A stretch of 28,916 nt of DNA from IMG/VR virus record IMGVR_UViG_3300018065_000058, positions 1-28,916 of that record, one strand, 5' to 3'. Position 1 is the first letter of the stretch. Each line of letters starts with the position of its first letter. The stretch is from a virus. A model generated the notes under the pieces. The model had not been told where the DNA came from. It did not search any database and saw only the letters and a list, made by a program, of their open reading frames with translations. Both the position numbers and the translations under genes were made by a program. Positions 10,392 to 28,065 of this stretch are shown here, piece after piece.

Positions 10392-10819
10392 CAGCCCACC
10401 CCCGTCTTCTGGGGACGTAGCTGTAGCTCACAGCGTCCGCTGGGTTTGTGGTAGGTCTTCCGCTGGATGGACCAGTAGTTCCCAGAATTCACTTCCATCT
10501 GAATGATGTCCGTGTCCTCCGGGTCAAAGTCATAGATGACCACCAACTGGTCCGTGGACTGGATCAGCCCCCCTGAATTCATGATCTTGTGTTCCGTGTA
10601 GTCCATGAACGTACAGGGGAACGGACCCAAGGTGTCCTCCGTCACGGTCCCTTCATGGGCCGCGTGGGGGATGGAGTCCGTCCGTGTAGTCCTGTGGATC
10701 GTCAGGAAGGGGTGGTCAAGCCGGAGCCTGTCCGTGGCCCAGATGACCTTCTGATCCACTTCATGGATGAAGTCAACGTGGAACTGGTTTATGGGGGTGG
10801 TCTTTGGAGCCCGGATCAT
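10391..10819 (-). CDS. Probable head-closure/head-tail connector protein, 142 aa
   Basis: The gene starts MIRAPKTTPINQFHVDF and overlaps both neighbours (ATGA upstream, TGATG downstream). It lies between an adaptor-like gene and the HK97-gp10-like gene, the usual place of the head-closure (gp16-like) protein. Its size and beta-rich C-terminal half (DQLVVIYDFDPEDTDI; GNYWSIQRKTYHKPSG) fit that family's small beta-barrel. I base the name mainly on gene order. Confidence 0.6.
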   Translation of the reverse strand: MIRAPKTTPINQFHVDFIHEVDQKVIWATDRLRLDHPFLTIHRTTRTDSIPHAAHEGTVTEDTLGPFPCTFMDYTEHKIMNSGGLIQSTDQLVVIYDFDPEDTDIIQMEVNSGNYWSIQRKTYHKPSGRCELQLRPQKTGVG

Positions 10820-11628
10820 AGTGGAGCCTCAACTTCATCAGAAACAGCTATCTTCCCGTTGATGTCCTCCGTGACTACCACGAAATACCAGGAACCCGTT
10901 TCCAGGTCACTGATCCTGATGGAAGTCTTATGGCGTTCTTTGATGGTCTTCAACAGCTCCGCGTTATCCTTGACCCCCTTGAAGGTGGCGTCAGGATTGT
11001 TCAGAGTAGTCAGGTCCTCCAAGCCCGCTTCATCACTGACGTAGACGTAGTAGGCGTTGAAGTCCGTGTCCGTATTTTCAGACCAGACAAGATCACAGGA
11101 GTCCGGTGGGTTCAGAGCCGCCACAGATAAAGCTGAAGCTTCCGGGCCTTCTTGAATAGACAGCGGGGTGATGTTGTCCCACAGGTCATCATAACTGACC
11201 AGAGTCCCCATGGTGACAGTCTCCCCAACCTTGGCCCCAATTTCCAAGTCTTCACAGACCTGGTCATACTCCATCCCCAACTTCTCCGCCAGCTCCATCT
11301 GATACTTGAACCGGATGGAAGGGTCAGCTTCCCCCTGTTGTCCTTTCACAGGAAACTGAAGGGAGACCTGGGTGGCCCGCCACAGACAGATGTCCTTCCA
11401 TGCCAGAAGCATGACAGGCGCTTCTTCCGCCCGTGGGAGCGTGTCCCAGGTGTAGTCAGGGTTATGACGTAGTAGGGCCTCTTCCAGGAACGTGGACGCC
11501 TCCGCGCTTGAAATCTCGAATTCATCCAGTTCCTTCACCCGCGCCCGGGTGACCAGCCGACTGGTCAAATTGACCAGCCGACTGGACCCAGTCACAGAGG
11601 AAACGTCAATCAGCTCCACTAAGGGCAT
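10816..11628 (-). CDS. Head-tail adaptor-like protein with C-terminal fibronectin-III-like domain, 270 aa
   Basis: The gene starts MPLVELIDVSSVTGSS after GGAGG. Residues 1-145 are largely helical (ISSAEASTFLEEALLRH; MLLAWKDICLWRATQV; RFKYQMELAEKLGMEYDQ), consistent with a connector or adaptor protein that packs on the portal. Residues about 160-270 read as a fibronectin-III-like beta-sandwich (SCDLVWSENTDTDFNAYYV; RISDLETGSWYFVVVTED). Such add-on domains on phage structural proteins are usually surface displayed. Gene order (capsid, acidic protein, this gene, head closure) supports a head-tail connector role. Confidence 0.6.
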   Translation of the reverse strand: MPLVELIDVSSVTGSSRLVNLTSRLVTRARVKELDEFEISSAEASTFLEEALLRHNPDYTWDTLPRAEEAPVMLLAWKDICLWRATQVSLQFPVKGQQGEADPSIRFKYQMELAEKLGMEYDQVCEDLEIGAKVGETVTMGTLVSYDDLWDNITPLSIQEGPEASALSVAALNPPDSCDLVWSENTDTDFNAYYVYVSDEAGLEDLTTLNNPDATFKGVKDNAELLKTIKERHKTSIRISDLETGSWYFVVVTEDINGKIAVSDEVEAPL

Positions 11629-11631
11629 GAC

Positions 11632-12189
11632 TTAGCCTCCGAACGCTGAACCGTTCGATATGAGGACGCCAGCCACATTCTGGGGAACCAGGTAGATCTG
11701 ACCTTCCTGACAGTGTGGGAATTCCGCAATCCACCGGAACGTGAAGCTCTTGGACTTCATCATTGGCGGAGTCAGAAGGGTCTTCAACATCCTGATGGGG
11801 ACGTAGCCCGCCGCCTTGGACGCCGCCGCGTCCGGGGCCGACCTGGGGAAGACGGGGGACTGGTTGGAAAGCTTGACCATGATGTCCTTATTCAAAGACT
11901 CACAGATTTCCGCTTCCGCCACCTGTTCTTCCGCCGCCGCGCTGTCCCGCCCGTCCGCCTCTTTAGCGGGGGCCGTTGGCGCTGGAGCGGTTTCTTCCGC
12001 TTCGCCATTGGGTTCATCCTCCACGAACGCCGGGGGCTCCACAGCTTCCGCCACGTCTGGCGTGACTTCTTCCGTAGGTTCCGCCGGAACCTCTTCAGGC
12101 GTGTTGACCGCCTCTTCCTCCACAGCTTCTTCCACCTGGATGGGATCTTCCGTGGGTGTGTTCTTTGGTTGTCTCCTGGATTTCGCCAT
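11632..12189 (-). CDS. Acidic capsid-associated protein, 185 aa
   Basis: The frame extends to 12213, but AGGAGGT lies seven bases before the ATG at 12189, which is therefore the start (MAKSRRQPKNTPTEDP). After a short basic N-terminus, residues about 10-100 are low-complexity Glu/Ala/Pro/Thr (VEEAVEEEAVNTPEEV). A folded-looking C-terminal part follows (GYVPIRMLKTLLTPPMM; QIYLVPQNVAGVLISNG). It lies directly after the major capsid gene, so a head decoration, head-fibre or connector role is plausible. Function not recognised. Confidence 0.7.
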   Translation of the reverse strand: MAKSRRQPKNTPTEDPIQVEEAVEEEAVNTPEEVPAEPTEEVTPDVAEAVEPPAFVEDEPNGEAEETAPAPTAPAKEADGRDSAAAEEQVAEAEICESLNKDIMVKLSNQSPVFPRSAPDAAASKAAGYVPIRMLKTLLTPPMMKSKSFTFRWIAEFPHCQEGQIYLVPQNVAGVLISNGSAFGG

Positions 12190-16151: not shown

Positions 16152-17855
16152 CTATACAAACAAGAAATTTTCCTGGTGGACCTCCACCATGGATCCGGTG
16201 GGTGGAGTGTTGGCCGCCAGGTTCGCCAACATGGCGCTGTCACAGTAGTCATCCCTGGCCGTCTTTTCATCTGGACAGTGACACTTCATCAGGTCCCCTG
16301 TGTAGGACTTCTGAAGGTCCAACATCTGATGAACAAAGCGCTTCCAGCGTTTGTCCGTCTGGGCTTCCGTCCCCGCCGGATACTGGAACCGCCCGCTGAC
16401 TATGTCCGTGTGGAAGATCTTGTAGGCTTCGCTCTTCTTGGGAGCCGTCAAGACCACGCCTTCTATCTCCACGTCCGCGCCTATCTCCGTGATCAGACGG
16501 TCCAGGAGAACAGCGCCCAACCCCGTGGCGTCCACACACAGCCGCTGAAGGTTGGGGATCTTCTGAAGGTAGTCCACGATGGCCGCAAACTGGATTTCAT
16601 AGTTGTCTCCCTGGATCTCCAGCCAGTCTATGATTGACTTGGTGTAGGCTTCAAAGTAAGCACACCCGTCAGAAGAGAAGGACTCTACTTCCTGACAGAT
16701 CGTGGGGTCATCCCAGTCCACTTCCACCACAGTGACCACTGTGGAGGACTGGCCCTTCCCAAAGTCAATTCCCGCCGCCTGGTATAGGTTGGCGTCCGCC
16801 TTCCCCAGAAGGGAGTAGCGCCCGCTCTTTATACAGACGATAGGCGCGAAGATCTGATCAGGCGTGACAAACTGACCGCGTTCCAGGACCCATTCACATT
16901 CATAGGCCATCCGGACTTCATCAGAGTCCGCGCCGTAGTGTTCAATCTCCTGTTTGACGAAGTCACCATAGAGTGAATTATAGGCCGCCGCCGTCCGCCA
17001 GTTGTATTCAAAATGGTTCTGTTTTCCGCCCTGAAGGCGCTTCTCCATGTTGGACTTGATCGTGGCGTGGAACTCCCCCTTCTGGGTGGTGGCTGTTCCT
17101 ACCGCCATGGTGGTCCCCTTGGTGGCCGCTATCATGGGACGGAGGGACTTCTTGATCTTTCGGCTGGAGATGTCCTGGGCCTCTTCCAGCGCCAGGATGT
17201 CATGGGTGGAGCCTTCCACCTTGGACTGTTCACTGGCGGAACAGGCCCTGATTTCTGACCCGTTGGTCAGCCTGATGGTGTCCCTGTTCCAGGTGTCCAC
17301 TTCAATTCCCAGTTCATCCAGGACTTCCATGGCCGTGTTCGTCTTCAGGTCCTTCATCAGCCGTCTGAACTGGATCTGGGCCTGTTCCAGCTTGGGAGCA
17401 TAGATCCCGATGGAAACGCCCTTCTTGAAGCCCCTGTAGCGTCCCTGTTCATCCGTAAGGTTGAACCGCCAGTCCCGTTCAAACTCCTGGTCATTGGCGA
17501 AGGTTGGAAGAAGGATGGCCAAGGCCGCCAGGATAGCCGCCGTCAGCTCCGTCTTTCCGGACTGACGGGAGAACAGGGCCGTGACTGTAGCGCCTTCATG
17601 AAGAAGGACGGACTCCACCAGCCTGGCCGCTGGGGTGATCTGGTAGGGGTAGAACTGAACTTCACTGATCAGTTGGGCCGTCTGAACGATGACCTGGACC
17701 AAGTATTTGGTCTCCACCTTGGCGTCCGCCTGGGACGTGAGGGGAGTACAAACAGGACACAGGCCGTCAGCCGTCTGACCGCCTGTAGCCCGTTTCCGCC
17801 TGGCCCTTCGCTTCTTGGCCGGTTTAACCTGTTCTTCTACTTGGATCTGGGACAT
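16152..17855 (-). CDS. terL: Large terminase subunit, 567 aa
   Basis: This is the DNA-packaging motor. Visible ATPase motifs are Walker A SRQSGKT at 96-102, Walker B ILALEEAQD at 220-228 and the coupling motif VGTATT at 252-257. The RNase-H-like nuclease follows, with Asp364 (AGIDFGKG), Asp442 (VDATGLG) and an Asp cluster 535-539 (ARDDYCDSAM). The first 30 residues are an unusual polybasic extension (KPAKKRRARRKRATGG), followed by a CPVC pair at 33-36. The start has AGGCGGAA before it and overlaps the 61-aa gene by 32 bases. No small terminase gene is obvious beside it. Confidence 0.95.
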   Translation of the reverse strand: MSQIQVEEQVKPAKKRRARRKRATGGQTADGLCPVCTPLTSQADAKVETKYLVQVIVQTAQLISEVQFYPYQITPAARLVESVLLHEGATVTALFSRQSGKTELTAAILAALAILLPTFANDQEFERDWRFNLTDEQGRYRGFKKGVSIGIYAPKLEQAQIQFRRLMKDLKTNTAMEVLDELGIEVDTWNRDTIRLTNGSEIRACSASEQSKVEGSTHDILALEEAQDISSRKIKKSLRPMIAATKGTTMAVGTATTQKGEFHATIKSNMEKRLQGGKQNHFEYNWRTAAAYNSLYGDFVKQEIEHYGADSDEVRMAYECEWVLERGQFVTPDQIFAPIVCIKSGRYSLLGKADANLYQAAGIDFGKGQSSTVVTVVEVDWDDPTICQEVESFSSDGCAYFEAYTKSIIDWLEIQGDNYEIQFAAIVDYLQKIPNLQRLCVDATGLGAVLLDRLITEIGADVEIEGVVLTAPKKSEAYKIFHTDIVSGRFQYPAGTEAQTDKRWKRFVHQMLDLQKSYTGDLMKCHCPDEKTARDDYCDSAMLANLAANTPPTGSMVEVHQENFLFV

Positions 17856-18009
17856 TTCCGCCTGGTGTCTTTCTGTACCTGTCCTGGATGGACATAGCTT
17901 CAGAAGAACTTAGGCGTGTGGGGGGTGTGTCTGTGGGTGGTGTTTTCGTGATGTTCTTCTTGATCGTGGCCCGCGTTGGGACACTGTATCCTGGCTTGAA
18001 TTTAGCCAT
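17824..18009 (-). CDS. Small basic protein, 61 aa, overlaps the terminase start
   Basis: It starts MAKFKPGYSVPTRATIKK. Its ATG shares one base with the stop of the polylysine peptide gene (TGATG), and AGGAAGAG lies about eight bases upstream. The last 32 bases overlap the terminase in another frame. The product is Lys/Arg/Pro/Thr-rich and probably disordered (TKTPPTDTPPTRL). Unknown function. It is too short for a typical small terminase, although the position would suit one. Confidence 0.55.
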   Translation of the reverse strand: MAKFKPGYSVPTRATIKKNITKTPPTDTPPTRLSSSEAMSIQDRYRKTPGGNVPDPSRRTG

Positions 18010-18077
18010 CAGCGTCTCTTCCTGGACTTCTTCTTCTTTTTCTTCTTCTTCTTCTTCTTCTTCTTGGAACAGGCCAT
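18009..18077 (-). CDS. Micro-ORF for a 22-aa polylysine peptide
   Basis: GGAGG lies eight bases before an ATG at 18077. The frame reads M-A-C-S, then 13 consecutive lysines (twelve AAG and one AAA), then S-R-K-R-R and TGA. It begins one base after the holin-like gene's stop and its TGA overlaps the ATG of the next gene, so it fits perfectly into the coupled operon. A strongly cationic peptide could bind DNA, nucleotides or membranes. It may instead be a microsatellite-driven spacer or a translational slow point. An alternative ATG at 18082 in another frame would give polyarginine, but it is only three bases from the ribosome site. Confidence 0.5.
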   Translation of the reverse strand: MACSKKKKKKKKKKKKKSRKRR

Positions 18078-18078
18078 G

Positions 18079-18387
18079 TCATGATCCTCCGTTTCCTTGG
18101 CTTCTTATGGCCCTCTGGGCCTCTTCAAGCTGTTGGATCAGTTCCGTGACTTTGGTCTGGAGATCTGGGACAAGACACTGTCTCTGACTTAGGGCCGTGA
18201 CTAGACTGACCACAGCCTGTCCCAATGTAACCACGGAAACACTGTTCTTGTCCACAGCCCTGGCCATGGTCTTCAGCGCTTCGTTCTGGTCCTCCTGTTG
18301 GGACCTAGTCCACTTCAGGATCAGAAAGACCGCTATCAGGACTATTCCCGCCGTTCCAAAGTCAGCCAGCCAAGTCAGTTCATTCAA
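18079..18387 (-). CDS. Holin-like small membrane protein with coiled coil, about 102 aa
   Basis: The longer frame begins at 18420 inside the upstream gene. A perfect AGGAGG sits five bases before a TTG at 18387, so I place the start there (M-NELTWLADFGTAG). One transmembrane helix covers about residues 11-24 (TAGIVLIAVFLIL), followed by KWTRSQQ and a long amphipathic coiled coil to the end (TKVTELIQQLEEAQR). One membrane span plus a cytoplasmic coiled coil resembles XhlA-type or other small phage holins. Lysis role is inferred only; no endolysin gene is adjacent. Confidence 0.6.
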   Translation of the reverse strand: MNELTWLADFGTAGIVLIAVFLILKWTRSQQEDQNEALKTMARAVDKNSVSVVTLGQAVVSLVTALSQRQCLVPDLQTKVTELIQQLEEAQRAIRSQGNGGS

Positions 18388-19609
18388 TGTAGCCTCCTGA
18401 TCCGGTCCCTTCTGGACCATTCGCGCCCGTCAGACCGTGACCGCTGGCCGTAGAAGCCGAAGACGCCCGGCTGGCGTAAACGCCCCACTTTTCGTTGGTC
18501 AGTTTCACGGTTCCATCCGCTGTTCCTGACGTGACCTGGCCCGCGCCATTGATGTCAAAGTAGTCCACGCCTGTGGCCACCACTTCATAGGTCCCGTCCG
18601 TGATCCCAGTGTTCCCAAGGATTTCCACCCATAGGGTATGATCCAGTTCATTCTGGGTCAGGGCCGCCCTGGACACCCGCCAGACATCCCCGCCCTGGTC
18701 TACCACGCCGGTGATGTTCTCCGCCGCTCCGCTGGTCACGTTGGCTTCCACAGCCACGTAGCTGGAATGACGGGTCTGGACGCCGCGTTTGTTGGAATGG
18801 ACCACACAGTTCTCCACGGAACCCTTGGAATTCCCCACCAGATAGATCCCAGCTTCACATCTGGTGAAATGGCCTCCTGTGATGACCACGTTCCCCGCTT
18901 CCATGACGTAGATGGCGGACGTGTTGTTGTTGTAGTTGTTGTCCGTGATGTCACAGTTCAGGACCTTCACGTCATTACACTGGAGGATGGCCAGACCCGC
19001 GCCCGTGGCGGACACCTTGTCAATCAGAAGACCGTCCAAGATGACACCGTTGGACCGCGCCACAGCTATCCCACAGGTTCCTGGAACGGAGATCTTTTCA
19101 ATCTCCGCCCCGTGTAGGTTCTCTGACTTGACCCGAAGCTTCCCCGTCCCAAGACAGGTCACGCCGTCAATGGCCAGGTAGGCCGGGGTCTGGACGGTTC
19201 CGAAACCTGGCGCTGTCATCTCCAAGGTGACAGCGTTCTGGTCATAGATCCCGTCAGCCAGTTGGACCGTGACTTCACAGTCCGCTATGGCCTTCCCTTC
19301 AATCAGAGTCAAGGCCGCGTTGGGGGACAGGAAGGGGTTGGCCGCCGTCCCGTCCCCGGTTTCGTCGCTTCCCGTGGTGGCCACGTGGATGGTCAGGGGC
19401 CAGGTGATGACCTCTGGTTCCAGCCTCATTTCCAGCCACTTGGCGTCAGACACGTAGGACAGGCCGCCGCCAGACGTGGTCAGCTTCCAGTCCCCCGTGG
19501 TCCCGATCTTGGTAGCGCCGTCTCCTGGAGCCTGGAGCGGATGGCGGAGAACTTCCGTCTCTTCATCCGCTACCAGTTGGACCGCGCTGATGACATCCTT
19601 TATATTCAT
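18380..19609 (-). CDS. Beta-helix appendage/tail fibre protein, 409 aa
   Basis: The gene starts MNIKDVISAVQLVADEE after AAGGAG. The N-terminal about 70 residues are probably a virion-attachment or linker part. TGSDETGDGT at 79-88 begins a right-handed parallel beta-helix of the pectate-lyase type, with repeated turns such as NGVILDGLLIDKVSATG, NDVKVLNCDITDNNYN, GNVVITGGHFTRCEAGI and GSVENCVVHSNKRGVQ. A small inserted domain (about 305-375) precedes the final coil and a Gly/Ser-rich tail. The build matches the neighbouring 476-aa protein. Such proteins usually bind or cut host surface glycans; no catalytic residues can be assigned. Confidence 0.8.
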   Translation of the reverse strand: MNIKDVISAVQLVADEETEVLRHPLQAPGDGATKIGTTGDWKLTTSGGGLSYVSDAKWLEMRLEPEVITWPLTIHVATTGSDETGDGTAANPFLSPNAALTLIEGKAIADCEVTVQLADGIYDQNAVTLEMTAPGFGTVQTPAYLAIDGVTCLGTGKLRVKSENLHGAEIEKISVPGTCGIAVARSNGVILDGLLIDKVSATGAGLAILQCNDVKVLNCDITDNNYNNNTSAIYVMEAGNVVITGGHFTRCEAGIYLVGNSKGSVENCVVHSNKRGVQTRHSSYVAVEANVTSGAAENITGVVDQGGDVWRVSRAALTQNELDHTLWVEILGNTGITDGTYEVVATGVDYFDINGAGQVTSGTADGTVKLTNEKWGVYASRASSASTASGHGLTGANGPEGTGSGGYIE

Positions 19610-19622
19610 GTCCGTCTCCTTT

Positions 19623-21053
19623 TTAGGTCTCTATCTGGCCGCCCGCATTGGTTCCAGTTTCGCCCAGCTCACATCTGACCAGACTATTTTCAGGGAAGTA
19701 GTAGGCTGTAGCGTTGTAGTCCGCCAGGACCCCGTATTCCAGGTTCCCCACTGAAATGTTTCCGCCTCCGGCTGGTCTAGTGGTGAAGGACCCGCTGGAT
19801 CTTTCAATGTCCACGTAGTATCTACCGCTTCCGCCGTCATAGCCGTAGGCCGTAGCTACCCATGACCCGTTATTACTGGACGCGGAAGATCCGGTCAGCC
19901 TGATGATCAGACCATAAGCCTTCTCCAGATCCGTGAACTGGGTTCCAGCCGGGTCCAAGTGAACCCTGGCCGTCCCTCCACCTGTATCTGTGATTTCGGC
20001 AATGTCAGGAAGAGGGTTGACAGGGTCAGCGTCATAGACCCACCTGGCGGACGCGCCACTACAGTGTGTTGACCTCATGGCCGTTCGACACCCGAAGATC
20101 CGCGAATTGGACACCGTCACCACAGAACAGGCGAACGCCAGAACCCCGAAGGGAGACCCCGAAATCAGACAGGTGTCTATCCCAACCATTTCAGAAGACT
20201 GAATGTAGATGGACGGAACAATCCAGAACCCTGAAATCCCTTCTCCTGGGACTCTGGTGTTGAATATACAGTTGGTCAGGGACACCTTGGAACTGGTGGA
20301 GACAGCTATTCCGCCGCCTACCACGCCGTCTATTTCCACGTTTTCGCTGTTGTCCACAGCCGTGGGTCCTAGCGTGACCTGGCCTGGGTTCTCCGCCTGT
20401 ATCCGGAACTTCCCGCCGCTGTAGGCCCTGACTGTGTTGACCCAGACAGGACCGCCGAAAGGCCCAGTATACCCAAAGGGGAACAGGTAGCTGTAGATGT
20501 CCGTGAACGGGTTGAAAGCGGAGTAGTCACCATCCGCAAACTGGAAGATGATGTCCGCTCCTAAGATCACCCGACCTTCCAAGACCTGTTCATAGCCGTG
20601 TCTGTAGCTTTGCCAAGGTAGTCCCACGGTTCCGTCACCTGTCACGTCACTTCCCGTTGGGGAGAAGTAGTAGGTGGCGCTTTCCGTGATCAGCTCTTCC
20701 GCGCCTGGGCCTGGGGGACCAGCGGGACCTGTGGTCCCTCCGGGTTTGCTGATCCCCCTAGACGCGAAAGGGCCAGACATCACCCGAACTTCCACCAGTC
20801 CGGTGACCGCTCTGACACCTATGACGCCAGGGGTGGAGAAGGTTTCCCCGCCGTAAGGTACAGACTCCTCTTGTTTCAGGATAGGTGTGACCGCTGGGTC
20901 CGCTACAGGGATCTTCCCGGGTTCAATGTAGACATCCCCATCCAAGGGAGTGATGATGATGGGTTCCCTGGTGTTTTCCGTCTTGATCAGGGTCCCCAGC
21001 GTGTCTACTGTGAACTGGCCGCCCCGCTTGTTTTGTAGAAGGAAATCAGCCAT
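19623..21053 (-). CDS. Beta-helix tail fibre/appendage protein with collagen-like segment, 476 aa
   Basis: The gene starts MADFLLQNKRGGQFTVD. Residues about 105-117 form a short collagen-like GxY stretch (GGTTGPAGPPGPG) that often trimerises phage fibres. TGSDVTGDGT at 133-142 opens a right-handed beta-helix (NVEIDGVVGGGIAVST; SKVSLTNCIFNTRV; VVTVSNSRIFGCRTAM). A beta domain is inserted at about 345-440 and the last coil returns with LEYGVLADYNATAYY. The equivalent motif order in the next gene shows they are diverged paralogues. Likely role: host-surface binding or depolymerase fibre. Confidence 0.8.
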   Translation of the reverse strand: MADFLLQNKRGGQFTVDTLGTLIKTENTREPIIITPLDGDVYIEPGKIPVADPAVTPILKQEESVPYGGETFSTPGVIGVRAVTGLVEVRVMSGPFASRGISKPGGTTGPAGPPGPGAEELITESATYYFSPTGSDVTGDGTVGLPWQSYRHGYEQVLEGRVILGADIIFQFADGDYSAFNPFTDIYSYLFPFGYTGPFGGPVWVNTVRAYSGGKFRIQAENPGQVTLGPTAVDNSENVEIDGVVGGGIAVSTSSKVSLTNCIFNTRVPGEGISGFWIVPSIYIQSSEMVGIDTCLISGSPFGVLAFACSVVTVSNSRIFGCRTAMRSTHCSGASARWVYDADPVNPLPDIAEITDTGGGTARVHLDPAGTQFTDLEKAYGLIIRLTGSSASSNNGSWVATAYGYDGGSGRYYVDIERSSGSFTTRPAGGGNISVGNLEYGVLADYNATAYYFPENSLVRCELGETGTNAGGQIET

Positions 21054-23329: not shown

Positions 23330-26300
23330 TCAGATGTCATCCCCTCTGACTATGATGTAGTCTATGGAAATGGTGTCCGTCAGCGTTGGGTCATTGTTCT
23401 GGAACCGTATTCCAAAATTGGCGTTATTATCCGAAGCGCCGCCTGAATGGGTGGAGATGTTGAACGTGTGGGGGCCTTTCCATAGATCACCGTATTGTGG
23501 AATAGTAGCCCTGGTGACCCAGGTGGAGCCGTTGGTGGTGTATAGGAACGTCACGTCCGCTTGGTCATCTGTGGAAGAATAGAAGGTGACCCTGATGTTA
23601 TCCTTCCCCACTGTGGAGATGAACTGATCCATGTAGTGGCCCGCGCTTCCGTTGATCGTCACAAAGCCCTGACCTGTGAAGTCCGTGAACCCGTAGCCTG
23701 GCTTCTGGTAGACTCCCTTCACTGGTCCCGTTCCTGGGTCATCCGGCCAGATGATGTATTCAGCGCCCACGTGGCCGCTGTAGGGGGACAGTTCATTGTG
23801 GATCGTCCTGACACTGGCCGCTGAAGACGTGGTCCATGGTGGAACTTCAAAGGTGGGCTGACGCCCGTCTTCAAAGTCTTCATAGTAGAGAACACTGGCG
23901 GAGTCAGGGACCATAGGATAGCCGTCACAAGCGTCCACCTTGATCTGATCAATGAAGAACTGAGAAGACGCCGTTGAAATTCCAGCCAGTTCAAAACGTA
24001 GCGTCAACTTGGTGTTGTGGGAGTAGGGGTGGGTCCCCAGCCATCTGGTGGACCCGTCTGGAACCGGTGGCGCTTCGTGGTATTCGTTGGCCCCAACCAG
24101 GTTCAGCTCCGCGTAGGTCCACGTGGAACCCACGTAGGGGAACCTGAACATCTCCCCTTCCACTGACGTGTTATTTGTCAGCCAGGCTGAACTGTTATTA
24201 GGGGACGCCCTGACTATCAGATAGCCGGGTCCGTTGTCTCCTACTTGGTGCCAAGCCTTGAACCAGAAAGAAATCACAGGTTCATACTTTCCAAGAAGAT
24301 CTATCCCTTCAGGAAGCTTCACCCAACTGATTCCCGCTAACTCTTCCACCCGGCCTTCATAATTGCTCCCCGTCCTGTTGAAGTCCGCCACAGTACAGTA
24401 GGGATCATTGTGTTCAGACCATGGTGGGGTCTGGGAGTCCCAGTCCAGGCCGTCTTCAAAGTCCTCCAGGTAGACCTGGCTTCCAGTACAGGCCGTAGGC
24501 GTGGGTGATGGTGTTGGTGTGTCCGTTGGGGTGGACGTGGGTGTGTCCGTTGGGGTGGAAGTAGGCGTTTCTGTTGGCGTGTTCGTGGGGGTATCCGTAG
24601 GCGTAGCCGTGGGGGTAGGCGTAGGCGTGAACGTGGGAAGGCTGGCGTCATAACAGCCAAGGACCTGAACGTCATCCACGTAGATGGAGGACACCCCGTC
24701 CGCCGGAGGTTTGTTGATCTTCACTCTGACTGTGACGTGGGGTTTGTGGGAGAAGGGGTCATCAGGGAGAAGGTGGGACCTGTAGGCCCAGATGTCTTGA
24801 CCTGGCGGGCCGAAGAAGAACCGGTCCAGGATCGTGTAGGGTCCCGCTTCCTCTGGAGCCACCATGATCTCCGCCGTGGCCGTGGTGGTGTTCATGACGC
24901 CCTTGGTGTAGTAGGACACCTTGACATCCCGCTGGGACTGGGTAGAAAGCTGGTGTTGAACGTACATGTCCCCTGTGGTGGAGGAAAAGCCCACCCGTCC
25001 TTCCTTGTCCGACCCGTCCCGCCCGTAGTCTCCCAGGTTGAAATACAGGGACCCAGGGAACTCCAGCCAAGGGATGGTCCCAGGCGGAACTGATAGGGTC
25101 CCCCAGTCAGACTCCCCTTCAAAGTCCTCCAGATAGAGCGTGGGACAGGCCGTGGGGGTGGACGTTGGCGTGTCCGTGGGAGTGTTCGTGGGAGTGTCCG
25201 TAGGGGGAGGGGTGGGGGTAGGCGTACACTGTTGGAACCTGGCTTTGTAGATCTGCCAGGTGTCCGCCGCGTCCTTCCGTTCATAGGCCACCCACTGACG
25301 CGCCGGGTCTATCGTGGGTCTGAACTTGTCATAGGGAGATGTGGTGATGACCTGTTCCCCGCCCACAGGTTCAGGGGGGCTCCCCGTCAGCTCCATGATG
25401 GCCATCTGGTAGTAGCCCGCCGAAGTCATCCGCTGATAGGCCAGCCACTGGCCCGTGTGGTCCCAGGTGGCGTTCATGTGGTGGAAGTCCGCGTCCGTCA
25501 GTTGGTATTCCGTCTCTGGAAGGGTTCCGCTGGCGTTCACCACGTACAGTTGAAAGTATCCATCCGCGTCCTTCTTGGAATACACGATCCAGTCCGTCAC
25601 GGGGTTCCACTCCAGATCCACCTTGTCTTCAGGGCTGAAGGTGACCCTCTCCACCTGGGCCAGCTCCCCGAAGACTATAGGGTTGGACAGGGACGCCTTG
25701 TAGATGTTCATGGCCCCGTCTTCCCCTTCTTGGCGGACGTAGGCCACCCACTGGGAGTCATTGGCGTAGGTCAGAAACCCGCGCCAGTTGGAATAGTCTG
25801 TGACCTGTCTGTAGCCCAGGCCGCCCACCACATGGAATATTTCAACTTGCCAATGGTTGGACCTGTGTTCTGGTTCTCTCATGTAGGCCAACCAGGCCCC
25901 GTTGGGGCTGAAGACAGGTTCTTTGTGGTCCATGAAGGGAGCCCCTACGATGGTTCCCCCTGAAGGCGGATCTCCAGCCGCGCCCCCTGAAATGTAGATC
26001 TTGGTCAAGCCCGTGGCGTCCGTGATTTCACAGGCCATCCCTTCCGAAGCCACCAAGGGGTAGAAGATGGTCCTGAAGTAGCTGTTCAGGGGGTCATCAG
26101 TGAAAGGATAATTTCCTAAGAAATCCATCTTCCAGGCGTTGGCCTGGAAGGTCTCCCCAGGTGGCTGGGCCGAATTCGCTATCCAGGTTCCCGAAGGGGA
26201 CCAGTCTGGGTATCTGTGATGAACCCCGTAGGTCTTGGCCGTGATCTGGATGTCATCCACAAACAGCGGGGAATTCACGCCCGTGGAAAAGGAAGACCTG

Positions 26301-27772
26301 AACCTGATGGAACAGGTGTTCACGCCTTCACAGGCCACAGGAAGAACGTCACTCCTGGGACCTGACCAGGTGGCGTCAATCCCCGTCAGCGTGGCCAAGG
26401 TGGTCCAAGGTCCCGCTGGTCCGTTCTCTGACGCTTCCAGGTAGCCGTTGGTGTAGGACGGAAGCGTTGTGGCTCCCCTGTAGGCCCAGGTGACCGTGAT
26501 GTCCTTCATCCCGTAGGTTGGGAAGGTGTAGGTCACCCATTCATCCGCGCCAGAGTAGGCCACTACCTGGGCTTCATAGGAACTTCCTGTCCGCGTGTAG
26601 TCTCCCACATTACAGTTCCCGTCTGTGGTCTCCGTCCAGGCCGGTGTCTGGGAGTCCCAGTCCAGACCGTTTTCAAAGTCCCAGAAGGCTACCTGGATAG
26701 GGTCAGGGATCGTCACCAAGACTTCAGGACAGACCTGGGGAAGGGGGGTCTGGGTGGCCGTAGGCGTGGCCGTGGGAATGTCAGGGGTGGGGGTGTTCGT
26801 AGGACCTGGAAGAGGGGTGGCCGTGGCGATAGGCCCCACAGAAGGAGGGGGTCCCGTGTCAGGGTCAAAAAAGAACCTCATAGCGTATTCACCCAGGTAG
26901 GCGCTGGGATCGTCCCCTGGCTCCCGCTTGTAGCCATCTTGCCATTTGATCCACCCGTAACCGCCTTCTCCCCAGCCGACCCCCCAGGAATTCTTGATCC
27001 GGAACGCCTCCAGGGAGTCATCATAGCCTACGATACAGACCGCGTGTCTCCCCAGGTATTCCCCATAGGTCCATTCATAGACTCCGCCAGTGTAGGCCAG
27101 GATGTCTTCATTGATGTCCATGGTGGCTTCCACAGGCCCGTAGATCACAGCGGACTTTATCCCATCCACGTTCACGCCGCTGGTGGGAGCGTAGCTGACG
27201 TAGAGCCAGTTGGAAATCTTCCAGACCCTGTCCGCCCAGTCCGCGCACCGGTTCAGACAGTTATCATCCACAGCCGCGTAGGGTAGACAGTTATCGTCTG
27301 GGACCCCCACGGTCTTGAAGAAATTGGCCGCCACAGAAATGGACATTCCGCTGGAACAGCTACCGCCGCCACAGGAGAAAAGGAACTGTTCAGATAGGTC
27401 TATGTCATAGTCCTGGTAGCCCGTGACGATCCTGACCAAGCCTTCCACCACAGCCGTCTGACTGAAGGAGGAACAGGCCCCACAGCTTCCCTGTTGTTTC
27501 ACGGGAGTCATCCAGTCAGTCCAGTCCCAGCTTGGGGGGTATAGCTGGAAGGCCGTGGCCGGGGGTTCGTTTTTGGGGTCAGGTGGAGCGCCCGCCGTGT
27601 CAAACATCCCACGAAGCTCTTCTACAGACAGGGAAGTCATGGTGGTCTCCCCGGCCGTCCACTCCGCGCCCTTCGTTTCAATGGCGTCCTGGATCTCTTC
27701 CACTGGGACGCCCGCTCCCTGGGCCAGGCCCCACACCAAACACAGCCCCCAGATGATCACCAGTTTCTTCAT
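23330..27772 (-). CDS. Secreted 1480-aa mosaic: papain-like (C1A) protease, TolB-like propeller, four beta-sandwich modules
   Basis: Signal peptide 1-20 (MKKLVIIWGLCLVWGLAQGA) and a short pro-region precede a C1A protease domain at about 77-303. Catalytic residues are visible: Gln94 and Cys100 (QQGSCGACSSF), His243 (GRHAVCIVGYDD) and Asn261 (KNSWGVGWGEGGYGWI). The Trp that follows Cys in papain is Ser here. Thr/Pro linkers lie at 308-345, 849-876 and 1046-1094. A TolB-like propeller spans about 518-846 (PDWSPSGTWIA, FSPNGAWLAYMRE, EWNPVTDWIVYSKKD, DHTGQWLAYQR, DPARQWVAYERKD). Jelly-roll-like modules begin near 363, 879, 1100 and 1296, mostly with a DFE(D/N/G) motif. Its ATG overlaps the lipoprotein stop. 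Likely acts on the host envelope or as a displayed virion protein. Confidence 0.88.
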   Translation of the reverse strand: MKKLVIIWGLCLVWGLAQGAGVPVEEIQDAIETKGAEWTAGETTMTSLSVEELRGMFDTAGAPPDPKNEPPATAFQLYPPSWDWTDWMTPVKQQGSCGACSSFSQTAVVEGLVRIVTGYQDYDIDLSEQFLFSCGGGSCSSGMSISVAANFFKTVGVPDDNCLPYAAVDDNCLNRCADWADRVWKISNWLYVSYAPTSGVNVDGIKSAVIYGPVEATMDINEDILAYTGGVYEWTYGEYLGRHAVCIVGYDDSLEAFRIKNSWGVGWGEGGYGWIKWQDGYKREPGDDPSAYLGEYAMRFFFDPDTGPPPSVGPIATATPLPGPTNTPTPDIPTATPTATQTPLPQVCPEVLVTIPDPIQVAFWDFENGLDWDSQTPAWTETTDGNCNVGDYTRTGSSYEAQVVAYSGADEWVTYTFPTYGMKDITVTWAYRGATTLPSYTNGYLEASENGPAGPWTTLATLTGIDATWSGPRSDVLPVACEGVNTCSIRFRSSFSTGVNSPLFVDDIQITAKTYGVHHRYPDWSPSGTWIANSAQPPGETFQANAWKMDFLGNYPFTDDPLNSYFRTIFYPLVASEGMACEITDATGLTKIYISGGAAGDPPSGGTIVGAPFMDHKEPVFSPNGAWLAYMREPEHRSNHWQVEIFHVVGGLGYRQVTDYSNWRGFLTYANDSQWVAYVRQEGEDGAMNIYKASLSNPIVFGELAQVERVTFSPEDKVDLEWNPVTDWIVYSKKDADGYFQLYVVNASGTLPETEYQLTDADFHHMNATWDHTGQWLAYQRMTSAGYYQMAIMELTGSPPEPVGGEQVITTSPYDKFRPTIDPARQWVAYERKDAADTWQIYKARFQQCTPTPTPPPTDTPTNTPTDTPTSTPTACPTLYLEDFEGESDWGTLSVPPGTIPWLEFPGSLYFNLGDYGRDGSDKEGRVGFSSTTGDMYVQHQLSTQSQRDVKVSYYTKGVMNTTTATAEIMVAPEEAGPYTILDRFFFGPPGQDIWAYRSHLLPDDPFSHKPHVTVRVKINKPPADGVSSIYVDDVQVLGCYDASLPTFTPTPTPTATPTDTPTNTPTETPTSTPTDTPTSTPTDTPTPSPTPTACTGSQVYLEDFEDGLDWDSQTPPWSEHNDPYCTVADFNRTGSNYEGRVEELAGISWVKLPEGIDLLGKYEPVISFWFKAWHQVGDNGPGYLIVRASPNNSSAWLTNNTSVEGEMFRFPYVGSTWTYAELNLVGANEYHEAPPVPDGSTRWLGTHPYSHNTKLTLRFELAGISTASSQFFIDQIKVDACDGYPMVPDSASVLYYEDFEDGRQPTFEVPPWTTSSAASVRTIHNELSPYSGHVGAEYIIWPDDPGTGPVKGVYQKPGYGFTDFTGQGFVTINGSAGHYMDQFISTVGKDNIRVTFYSSTDDQADVTFLYTTNGSTWVTRATIPQYGDLWKGPHTFNISTHSGGASDNNANFGIRFQNNDPTLTDTISIDYIIVRGDDI
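24491..24637 (-). repeat. Thr-Pro repeat linker (third)
   Basis: Coding-strand ACN-CCN repeats give about 49 residues of the type T-P-T-D-T-P-T-N-T-P-T, with Ser, Asp, Asn and Glu alternating at every third position. It separates two beta-sandwich modules of the secreted protease. Related shorter tracts are at 25145-25228 and 26738-26851. Confidence 0.85.
25145..25228 (-). repeat. Thr-Pro repeat linker (second)
   Basis: About 28 residues (PTPPPTDTPTNTPTDTP and on) join the end of the propeller to the second beta-sandwich module. The underlying DNA repeats a degenerate 12-base unit, so recombination or length variation between isolates is plausible. Confidence 0.8.
26646..26681 (-). repeat. 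Direct repeat copy, first beta-sandwich start (partner at 24429-24464)
   Basis: 36 bases here and 36 bases at 24429-24464 differ at two positions by eye. Both encode the same module entry, GLDWDSQTP. The protein identity falls off after this point, suggesting recent local exchange or a strongly conserved module start. Confidence 0.8.
26738..26851 (-). repeat. Thr-Pro repeat linker (first)
   Basis: About 38 residues (TATPLPGPTNTPTPDIPTA and on) form the hinge between the papain-like domain and the first beta-sandwich. It is less regular than the other two linkers. Confidence 0.75.
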
Positions 27773-28065
27773 TCTTCGTCCTCCGTGTCCTCTGTGTCCT
27801 CCGTGGTCTCCGCCGGTGTCTCTTCTTCGTCCGTGTCCTCCTTCTTGACCTTCCCGCCCAGGAGATCGTCAAAGGATGTCCACAGCTCCGCGTTGACCTG
27901 GATGAATTTCTGTTCCTGTTCCCGCGTGGTTTCTCCCGCCTCCACCAGCTCCGCCATCCGCCGGGCCAGGATGGCGTTCTGGGCCGCCATGGGTTTGACA
28001 GCGTGGGGGACACAGCCCAACATCAGGGCCGCCAGGATCGTGATCATGACCAGTCTTGTCTTCAT
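27769..28065 (-). CDS. Small lipoprotein, 98 aa
   Basis: The gene starts MKTRLVMITILAALMLGC: a basic n-region, hydrophobic core and Cys18 after Leu-Gly give a lipoprotein signal (lipobox MLGC). The mature part is helical (ARRMAELVEAGETTREQE; KFIQVNAELWTSFDDLLGG) and ends in a very acidic Glu/Thr/Asp tail (DEEETPAETTEDTEDTED). GGAGGAAGA precedes the ATG, which overlaps the previous stop, and its own stop overlaps the protease gene. The paired secretion signals suggest the two products meet at the host envelope; a spanin-like or superinfection-exclusion role is conceivable but unproven. Confidence 0.75.
   Translation of the reverse strand: MKTRLVMITILAALMLGCVPHAVKPMAAQNAILARRMAELVEAGETTREQEQKFIQVNAELWTSFDDLLGGKVKKEDTDEEETPAETTEDTEDTEDEE

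Follow-up and report, generated by a model that had tools for sequence, protein, structure and literature searches.

What would a phage gain from a giant, secreted, papain-type protease? The question is raised by IMG/VR virus record IMGVR_UViG_3300018065_000058 (28,916 bases, analyzed at its full length and referred to here as the window), in which one gene of the late cluster predicts such a protein. To our knowledge, this multimodule protein of 1480 aa exceeds any known lysis protein in size.

The protease gene and its phage setting

The gene lies on the same strand as the gene for the terminase large subunit (TerL), about 5.5 kb upstream of it, between genes for a small lipoprotein and a phosphodiesterase. 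A first-pass annotation, made from the sequence, had placed it inside a phage structural operon, which is a fair description of the following arrangement:

27769-28065 (-), lipoprotein gene, 98 aa, lipobox LMLGC, upstream of the protease gene and coupled to it by ATGA (from sequence)
23330-27772 (-), predicted secreted pro-C1A protease gene, a single open frame of 1480 aa
22381-23340 (-), alkaline-phosphatase-superfamily phosphodiesterase gene, sharing 11 nt with the 3' end of the protease gene (Pfam PF01663, 7.6e-6)
18079-18420 (-), gene for a protein of 113 aa that has a single transmembrane segment plus a C-terminal tail (hydropathy peak, 2.22; weak PHROG spanin match, 0.042)
16152-17855 (-), TerL gene, marking the phage context (PHROG, 9.6e-22)

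The ATGA overlap reported in that annotation was found at the start of the protease gene, whose start codon shares these bases (27769-27772) with the stop codon of the lipoprotein gene; the 3' end instead shows an 11-nt overlap with the next gene, which is not of the ATGA type. A spanin-like role for the 98-aa lipoprotein is only a guess, and a holin- or inner-spanin-like identity for the 113-aa protein is uncertain.

A search with the terminase recovered a 67.9-kb contig, G001 (L015-L018), that was 99.99% identical to the window across 24,226 bases. It also recovered G003 (L009-L013, 99.9 kb) and G002 (L014, 16 kb), related contigs with terminases 88-89% identical. G003 and G002 both encode full-length homologues of the protease (53% identity) at the same position in the late cluster, with lipoprotein and phosphodiesterase flanks. 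The phosphodiesterase gene adjoins the protease gene in both, and the stretch upstream is homologous in both to the region of the 98-aa lipoprotein, the lipoprotein gene there being a fusion with a CxxCxxCC-type protein. The window also encodes two beta-helix (pectate-lyase-like, tailspike-type) proteins at 18380-19609 and 19623-21053 (-); three related genes occupy the same place in G003, indicating that their copy number varies.

Since the protease domain is of a bacterial secreted type, we considered whether the gene might be a contaminant or host DNA caught in the contig. Two other phage contigs with a homologue in the corresponding place ruled this out, as did composition: codon usage matched that of the neighboring genes (r=0.97), none of the 101 alanine codons was GCA, and GCA/TGC was observed 6 times in the gene as opposed to about 105 expected, a depletion common to the phage. 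Recent host insertion and contamination are thus excluded in practice, and the probability left to them is negligible. Judged by its position and composition, and by the purifying selection on its catalytic domain (see below), the protease gene is a genuine, intact, long-resident phage gene, as the first-pass annotation had proposed; the catalytic residues proved intact, and a search of phage metagenomes for the same architecture returned the two related phage contigs, so that homologues are not confined to cellular genomes.

GCA/TGC depletion and candidate DNA modification genes

The depletion of GCA/TGC extends through the lineage (window, G001, G003, and G002), where it is about 8- to 25-fold and affects all reading frames and both strands. 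Observed-to-expected ratios were 0.04-0.12 in the lineage as opposed to 0.70-1.46 across 154 unrelated loci, none of which shares the depletion. Because all frames and both strands are affected, the avoidance acts at the DNA level rather than through codon bias, and a codon-only reading was ruled out on these grounds. TGCA was seen once in the window, with 106 occurrences expected, and further depleted motifs were TGAG/CTCA, CGAG/CTCG, GTCG/CGAC, and CTAG. The depletion may reflect evasion of a defence directed at short motifs or an unusual mode of modification or mutation.

G003 carries a TGT/DpdA-like gene (L012:12909-14081, -; PHROG queuine tRNA-ribosyltransferase, 2.2e-32) and a QueC gene (L013:316-1107, -; 7.5e-26), a combination that suggests 7-deazaguanine DNA modification; similar genes of the 7-deazaguanine type are found in G001 (10465-11640 and 17647-18399). 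At L012:15855-18582 (-), a gene for a MoxR-type AAA ATPase (bpMoxR, 4.5e-34) adjoins a weakly matching VWA-domain gene, a pair which we take to resemble parts of the MoxR-vWA-beta-propeller ternary systems.

Architecture of the protein

The predicted protein is divided into the following parts, all encoded on the (-) strand:

27716-27772 (-), residues 1-19, Sec-type signal peptide (MKKLVIIWGLCLVWGLAQG); hydrophobic peak at residues 4-22, inferred cleavage site
27542-27715 (-), residues 20-77, pro-region with the motif I..KG..W.AG.T..S.LS.EE, common to cellular and other viral pro-C1A proteases
26858-27541 (-), residues 78-305, C1A papain catalytic domain with Gln94, Cys100, His243, and Asn261 (Pfam, PDB relatives, Foldseek)
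26732-26857 (-), residues 306-347, Thr-Pro-rich linker 1 (from sequence)
26231-26731 (-), residues 348-514, probable beta-sandwich module 1 (repeat of the EDFE-type module)
25229-26230 (-), residues 515-848, PD40/TolB-like beta-propeller (Pfam, Foldseek)
25148-25228 (-), residues 849-875, Thr-Pro-rich linker 2 (from sequence)
24644-25147 (-), residues 876-1043, probable beta-sandwich module 2 (EDFE motif; strand-rich low-confidence model)
24488-24643 (-), residues 1044-1095, Thr-Pro-rich linker 3 (from sequence)
23915-24487 (-), residues 1096-1286, probable beta-sandwich module 3 (EDFEDG motif)
23333-23914 (-), residues 1287-1480, probable beta-sandwich module 4 (comparison of phage homologues)

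The catalytic domain matched Pfam PF00112 (Peptidase_C1) over residues 79-276 (E value, 4.6e-33), and its closest solved relatives were dipeptidyl peptidase I, cathepsins, and papains. With dipeptidyl peptidase I, the alignable sequence starts inside the pro-region, at residue 35. Gln94, Cys100, His243, and Asn261 were invariant across eight sequences (one from the window, two from the related phages, and five from cellular relatives). Structures were modeled for the N-terminal 880 aa (mean pLDDT, 50.7) and the C-terminal 605 aa (mean pLDDT, 43.6), and Foldseek was applied to the papain and propeller parts. The papain part, modeled with moderate confidence, aligned to solved papain-family enzymes with a TMt of up to 0.82. 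By its catalytic residues, domain homology, and papain fold, the protein belongs to the C1A (papain) peptidases, with activity predicted. It has in common with papain, cathepsins, and dipeptidyl peptidase I (MEROPS C1A) the catalytic residues, the fold, and the arrangement of the pro-region; it differs from them in its giant C-terminal extension and in the residue after the catalytic cysteine, where Ser101 replaces the equivalent of Trp26. The signal peptide and pro-region together define a predicted zymogen, the inhibition being predicted from sequence and conservation.

The propeller was recognized by Pfam PD40 (3.6e-8 with the whole protein and 7e-12 with the segment alone) and by Foldseek (TolB, 3iax; E value, 2.6e-10), with a pLDDT of about 60-84 across much of its length. 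The four modules of the C-terminal type are strand-rich repeats, each opening with [YF]xEDFE, for which no Pfam or PDB family matched. Given this and the poor model of the C-terminal part, the beta-sandwich fold is probable rather than demonstrated. Thus, the signal peptide, the C1A domain with its intact Gln/Cys/His/Asn, the three Thr-Pro linkers, and the propeller were all as first described, and structure prediction recovered the papain and propeller folds; of the four proposed beta-sandwiches, the repeats were confirmed, but the fold was modeled with low confidence.

The signal peptide, found in all three phage homologues (window, G002, and G003), predicts export and bears on whether the protein is part of the virion, as an adhesin or as an entry protease that attacks a protein sheath when the phage infects. 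Tail genes and beta-helix proteins lie nearby, and the large, beta-rich, modular form would suit such a function. However, virion structural proteins, being assembled in the cytoplasm, are expected to lack an export signal, whereas the Sec signal kept in three phages predicts export away from virion assembly; moreover, Pfam and PHROG revealed no tail-attachment domain in the protease. The earlier suggestion of a displayed adhesin is thus disfavored, and we regard a virion role as improbable.

A conserved enzyme with exchangeable modules

The C1A domain is the best-conserved globular part of the protein across the three phages (68-70% identity with the window). Its dN/dS ratio was about 0.25-0.28 when the window was compared with G002 and G003 and 0.17 when these two were compared with each other; the domain is under purifying selection. 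In the propeller and the C-terminal modules, identity between phages falls to 39-66%. G003 and G002 have identical copies of module 1 (dS, 0.03) while their neighboring modules differ strongly, which points to a recent exchange. Module 3 is 51-55% identical between phages. In module 4, G003 stands nearer to the window (66%) than to G002 (54%), as expected of a mosaic assembled module by module. Such exchange on a conserved enzyme suggests that the modules are changing targeting parts.

A conserved protease with shuffled, fast-evolving modules would also fit the recognition of variable surface molecules. On infected cells or their neighbors, the enzyme might cut receptors or further surface proteins and so block superinfection and the loss of virions on debris, the C-terminal modules recognizing variable targets. 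The signal peptide is compatible with this role, and the two beta-helix proteins of the same cluster are possibly receptor facing; nevertheless, the C1A genes of other phages favor lysis genes as neighbors (see below). We consider surface remodeling possible but unlikely.

Cellular relatives and the host

A scan of genome contigs with a C1A motif pattern identified secreted bacterial C1A proteases as relatives of the pro-region and catalytic domain. The best of them were 30-37% identical and came mainly from candidate phyla of the FCB type, among them WOR-3/Stahlbacteria, KSB1, Coatesbacteria, and Eisenbacteria. Cellular proteases (L043, L038, L032, L041, L100, and L078) show the same order of signal peptide, W.AG-type pro-region, and C1A domain. 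They are mostly 400-1000 aa long, as opposed to 1480 aa, carry other C-terminal modules, and have CGSCWAF in place of the CGACS[SA]F of the phages. By homology, the catalytic domain belongs to the pro-C1A family of secreted bacterial proteases, among which the window clade forms a long branch in the tree. None of the recovered cellular relatives had Thr-Pro linkers. The C-terminal modules had no informative cellular match and, save for weak matches of linker length, went undetected in 47 Eisenbacteria and 82 KSB1 genomes. A bacterial host is suggested by two phage products, a RecA of the bacterial type and an M15 peptidoglycan-peptidase-like protein; linker style, GC content, and the candidate-phylum relatives are only hints to its identity.

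Several of the cellular genomes hold 4-12 secreted C1A copies, whose ancestral role may be protein digestion. The phage gene could accordingly be an auxiliary metabolic or moron gene of bacterial C1A origin that feeds the infected cell or its community through digestion of extracellular protein. There is a precedent in Bfp3, a secreted papain-clan protease of 431 aa carried by the prophage-like element Bfgi2 of Bacteroides fragilis and described as a case of protease dissemination rather than of lysis (PMC2873492). Bfp3 resembles the window protein in being a secreted papain-clan enzyme on a phage-like element but belongs to family C10 rather than C1A (PMC2873492). Since the window gene sits within a late cluster, is translationally coupled, and has been retained by three phages, it does not behave as isolated cargo, and a metabolic function seems rather unlikely.

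Secreted C1A proteases in other viruses

Neither the whole protein nor the C1A domain had a match in INPHARED, and single-protein and alignment scans of IMG/VR viral contigs returned only the two known relatives, G002 and G003. The full architecture was therefore found only in three phages among the databases searched. C1A relatives as such are more widespread: at least 48 IMG/VR loci carry one, 40 viral stretches bear one canonical C1A motif, and BFVD also contains phage C1 proteins. By eye, the majority of the viral relatives open with a signal peptide or lipobox. The first-pass annotation had called secreted papain-family enzymes very unusual in phages; they are indeed rare in viral contigs but recurrent, so that the statement was too strong. 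A constraint placing seven viral pro-C1A proteins in one clade was rejected (AU test, P = 0.00058), which indicates that viruses acquired such proteases more than once.

Lysis genes are prominent among the neighbors of viral C1A genes. Among 131 genes located within two places of a viral C1A gene, endolysin and amidase families were the PHROG families with the most members (7, 7, 6, 6, 6, and so on); in a comparison set of 131 genes lying farther off (more than 4 kb), none of the 25 most-matched families was of this kind. An amidase or lysozyme gene was present within about 1.3 kb in 9 of 36 viral C1A loci, although six of the nine represent one arrangement (Amidase_2 upstream of C1A) and may reflect few independent events. 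Where an amidase, lysozyme, or GH108 gene was detected at all, it lay within about 1.3 kb in 9 of 11 loci, a count for which the enzyme queries were drawn from near genes and some loci were short. Pfam confirmed the lysis-enzyme neighbors for examples.

Several of these loci deserve mention. At L152:8215-11005, a transmembrane gene, a GH108 endolysin gene, lipoprotein genes, and a secreted pro-C1A gene follow in a row, forming a clear lysis cassette. In L158, L164, L169, L171, L177, and L180, an Amidase_2 endolysin gene precedes a gene for a secreted or lipoprotein C1A protease; after this conserved pair there is usually a gene for another exported protein, about 250-275 aa long, and the one example searched against Pfam had no match. 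L109, L128/L149, and L144/L151 encode a pro-C1A protease with a C-terminal region resembling, by eye, an F5/8-type binding domain, and in L149 two small transmembrane genes come after it. What L109/L128/L144, L152, and L158/L164/L169/L171/L177/L180 share with the window is a viral contig that encodes an exported C1A protease, in several cases next to lysis genes. Unlike the window protein, the other viral proteases are about 260-550 aa long, lack the propeller and the Thr-Pro linkers, and represent separate acquisitions.

The protease and the endolysin

Pfam and PHROG recognized no endolysin among the window genes tested, and the first-pass annotation, which had likewise seen none, suggested that the protease might be a protein-based replacement. 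Its observation holds within the window but not for the phage: a Peptidase_M15_3 protein with metal-site motifs is encoded elsewhere on the near-identical G001 and also on G003, where it matched PHROG "endolysin" at 2.8e-22. Since a peptidoglycan-peptidase gene is already present in this phage, we do not regard the protease as a substitute for an endolysin. Pfam found no peptidoglycan-hydrolase domain within the 1480 aa, and the C1A genes of other phages adjoin endolysin genes instead of replacing them. We rejected the replacement hypothesis, which is very improbable.

An accessory role in lysis or release

The reading that we prefer, with a probability of about 0.45, is that of an exported zymogen protease with targeting C-terminal modules, accessory to lysis or release and acting alongside a conventional endolysin. 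The Sec signal would export the protease from the cytoplasm late in infection, as its sequence and the position of its gene suggest, and the pro-region, by homology, would hold it inactive until it is outside the cell. There, the C1A domain would cut host envelope or surface proteins, its presumed substrates, for which the first-pass annotation had suggested an S-layer as a possible example. Binding and choice of the target probably fall to the TolB-type propeller and the fast-diverging, swapped C-terminal domains, roles consistent with their observed mosaic evolution. With a separate, conventional endolysin at work, the phage may leave the cell and its debris more readily.

In favor of this model are the intact C1A domain, signal peptide, and pro-region in three phages. 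The accessory role itself is suggested by unrelated phages that keep a secreted C1A gene directly beside endolysin genes; the lysis role, the substrate, and the timing would follow mainly by analogy. At the window itself, the lipoprotein gene upstream and the one-transmembrane gene downstream are tentative lysis candidates, and the endolysin gene of the lineage is distant (about 46 kb from the protease gene in G003), so that the cassette argument is one of analogy. The original proposal of a function in lysis gained indirect support from the amidase and lysozyme neighbors in other phages.

We further propose, tentatively and with the odds against it, that secreted papain-type zymogens form a general class of lysis or release proteins, repeatedly recruited by phages and attacking envelope protein beside endolysins. 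The window protein would be an extreme form of this class, with a propeller and interchangeable targeting modules.

Known phage lysis proteins target membranes (holins and spanins) and peptidoglycan (endolysins), with lipases added in some phages. We found no description of phage C1A or papain-type proteases in lysis cassettes in the open-access literature. Enzymes of this class are known, but neither the giant architecture nor the recurrent association of secreted C1A proteases with phage lysis genes seems to have been described in that literature. The conservation of an exported papain-type protease, together with the recurrence of such enzymes next to endolysins in unrelated phages, points to envelope proteolysis as an additional, testable layer of lysis and to a source of phage-derived proteases for mostly uncultured bacteria.
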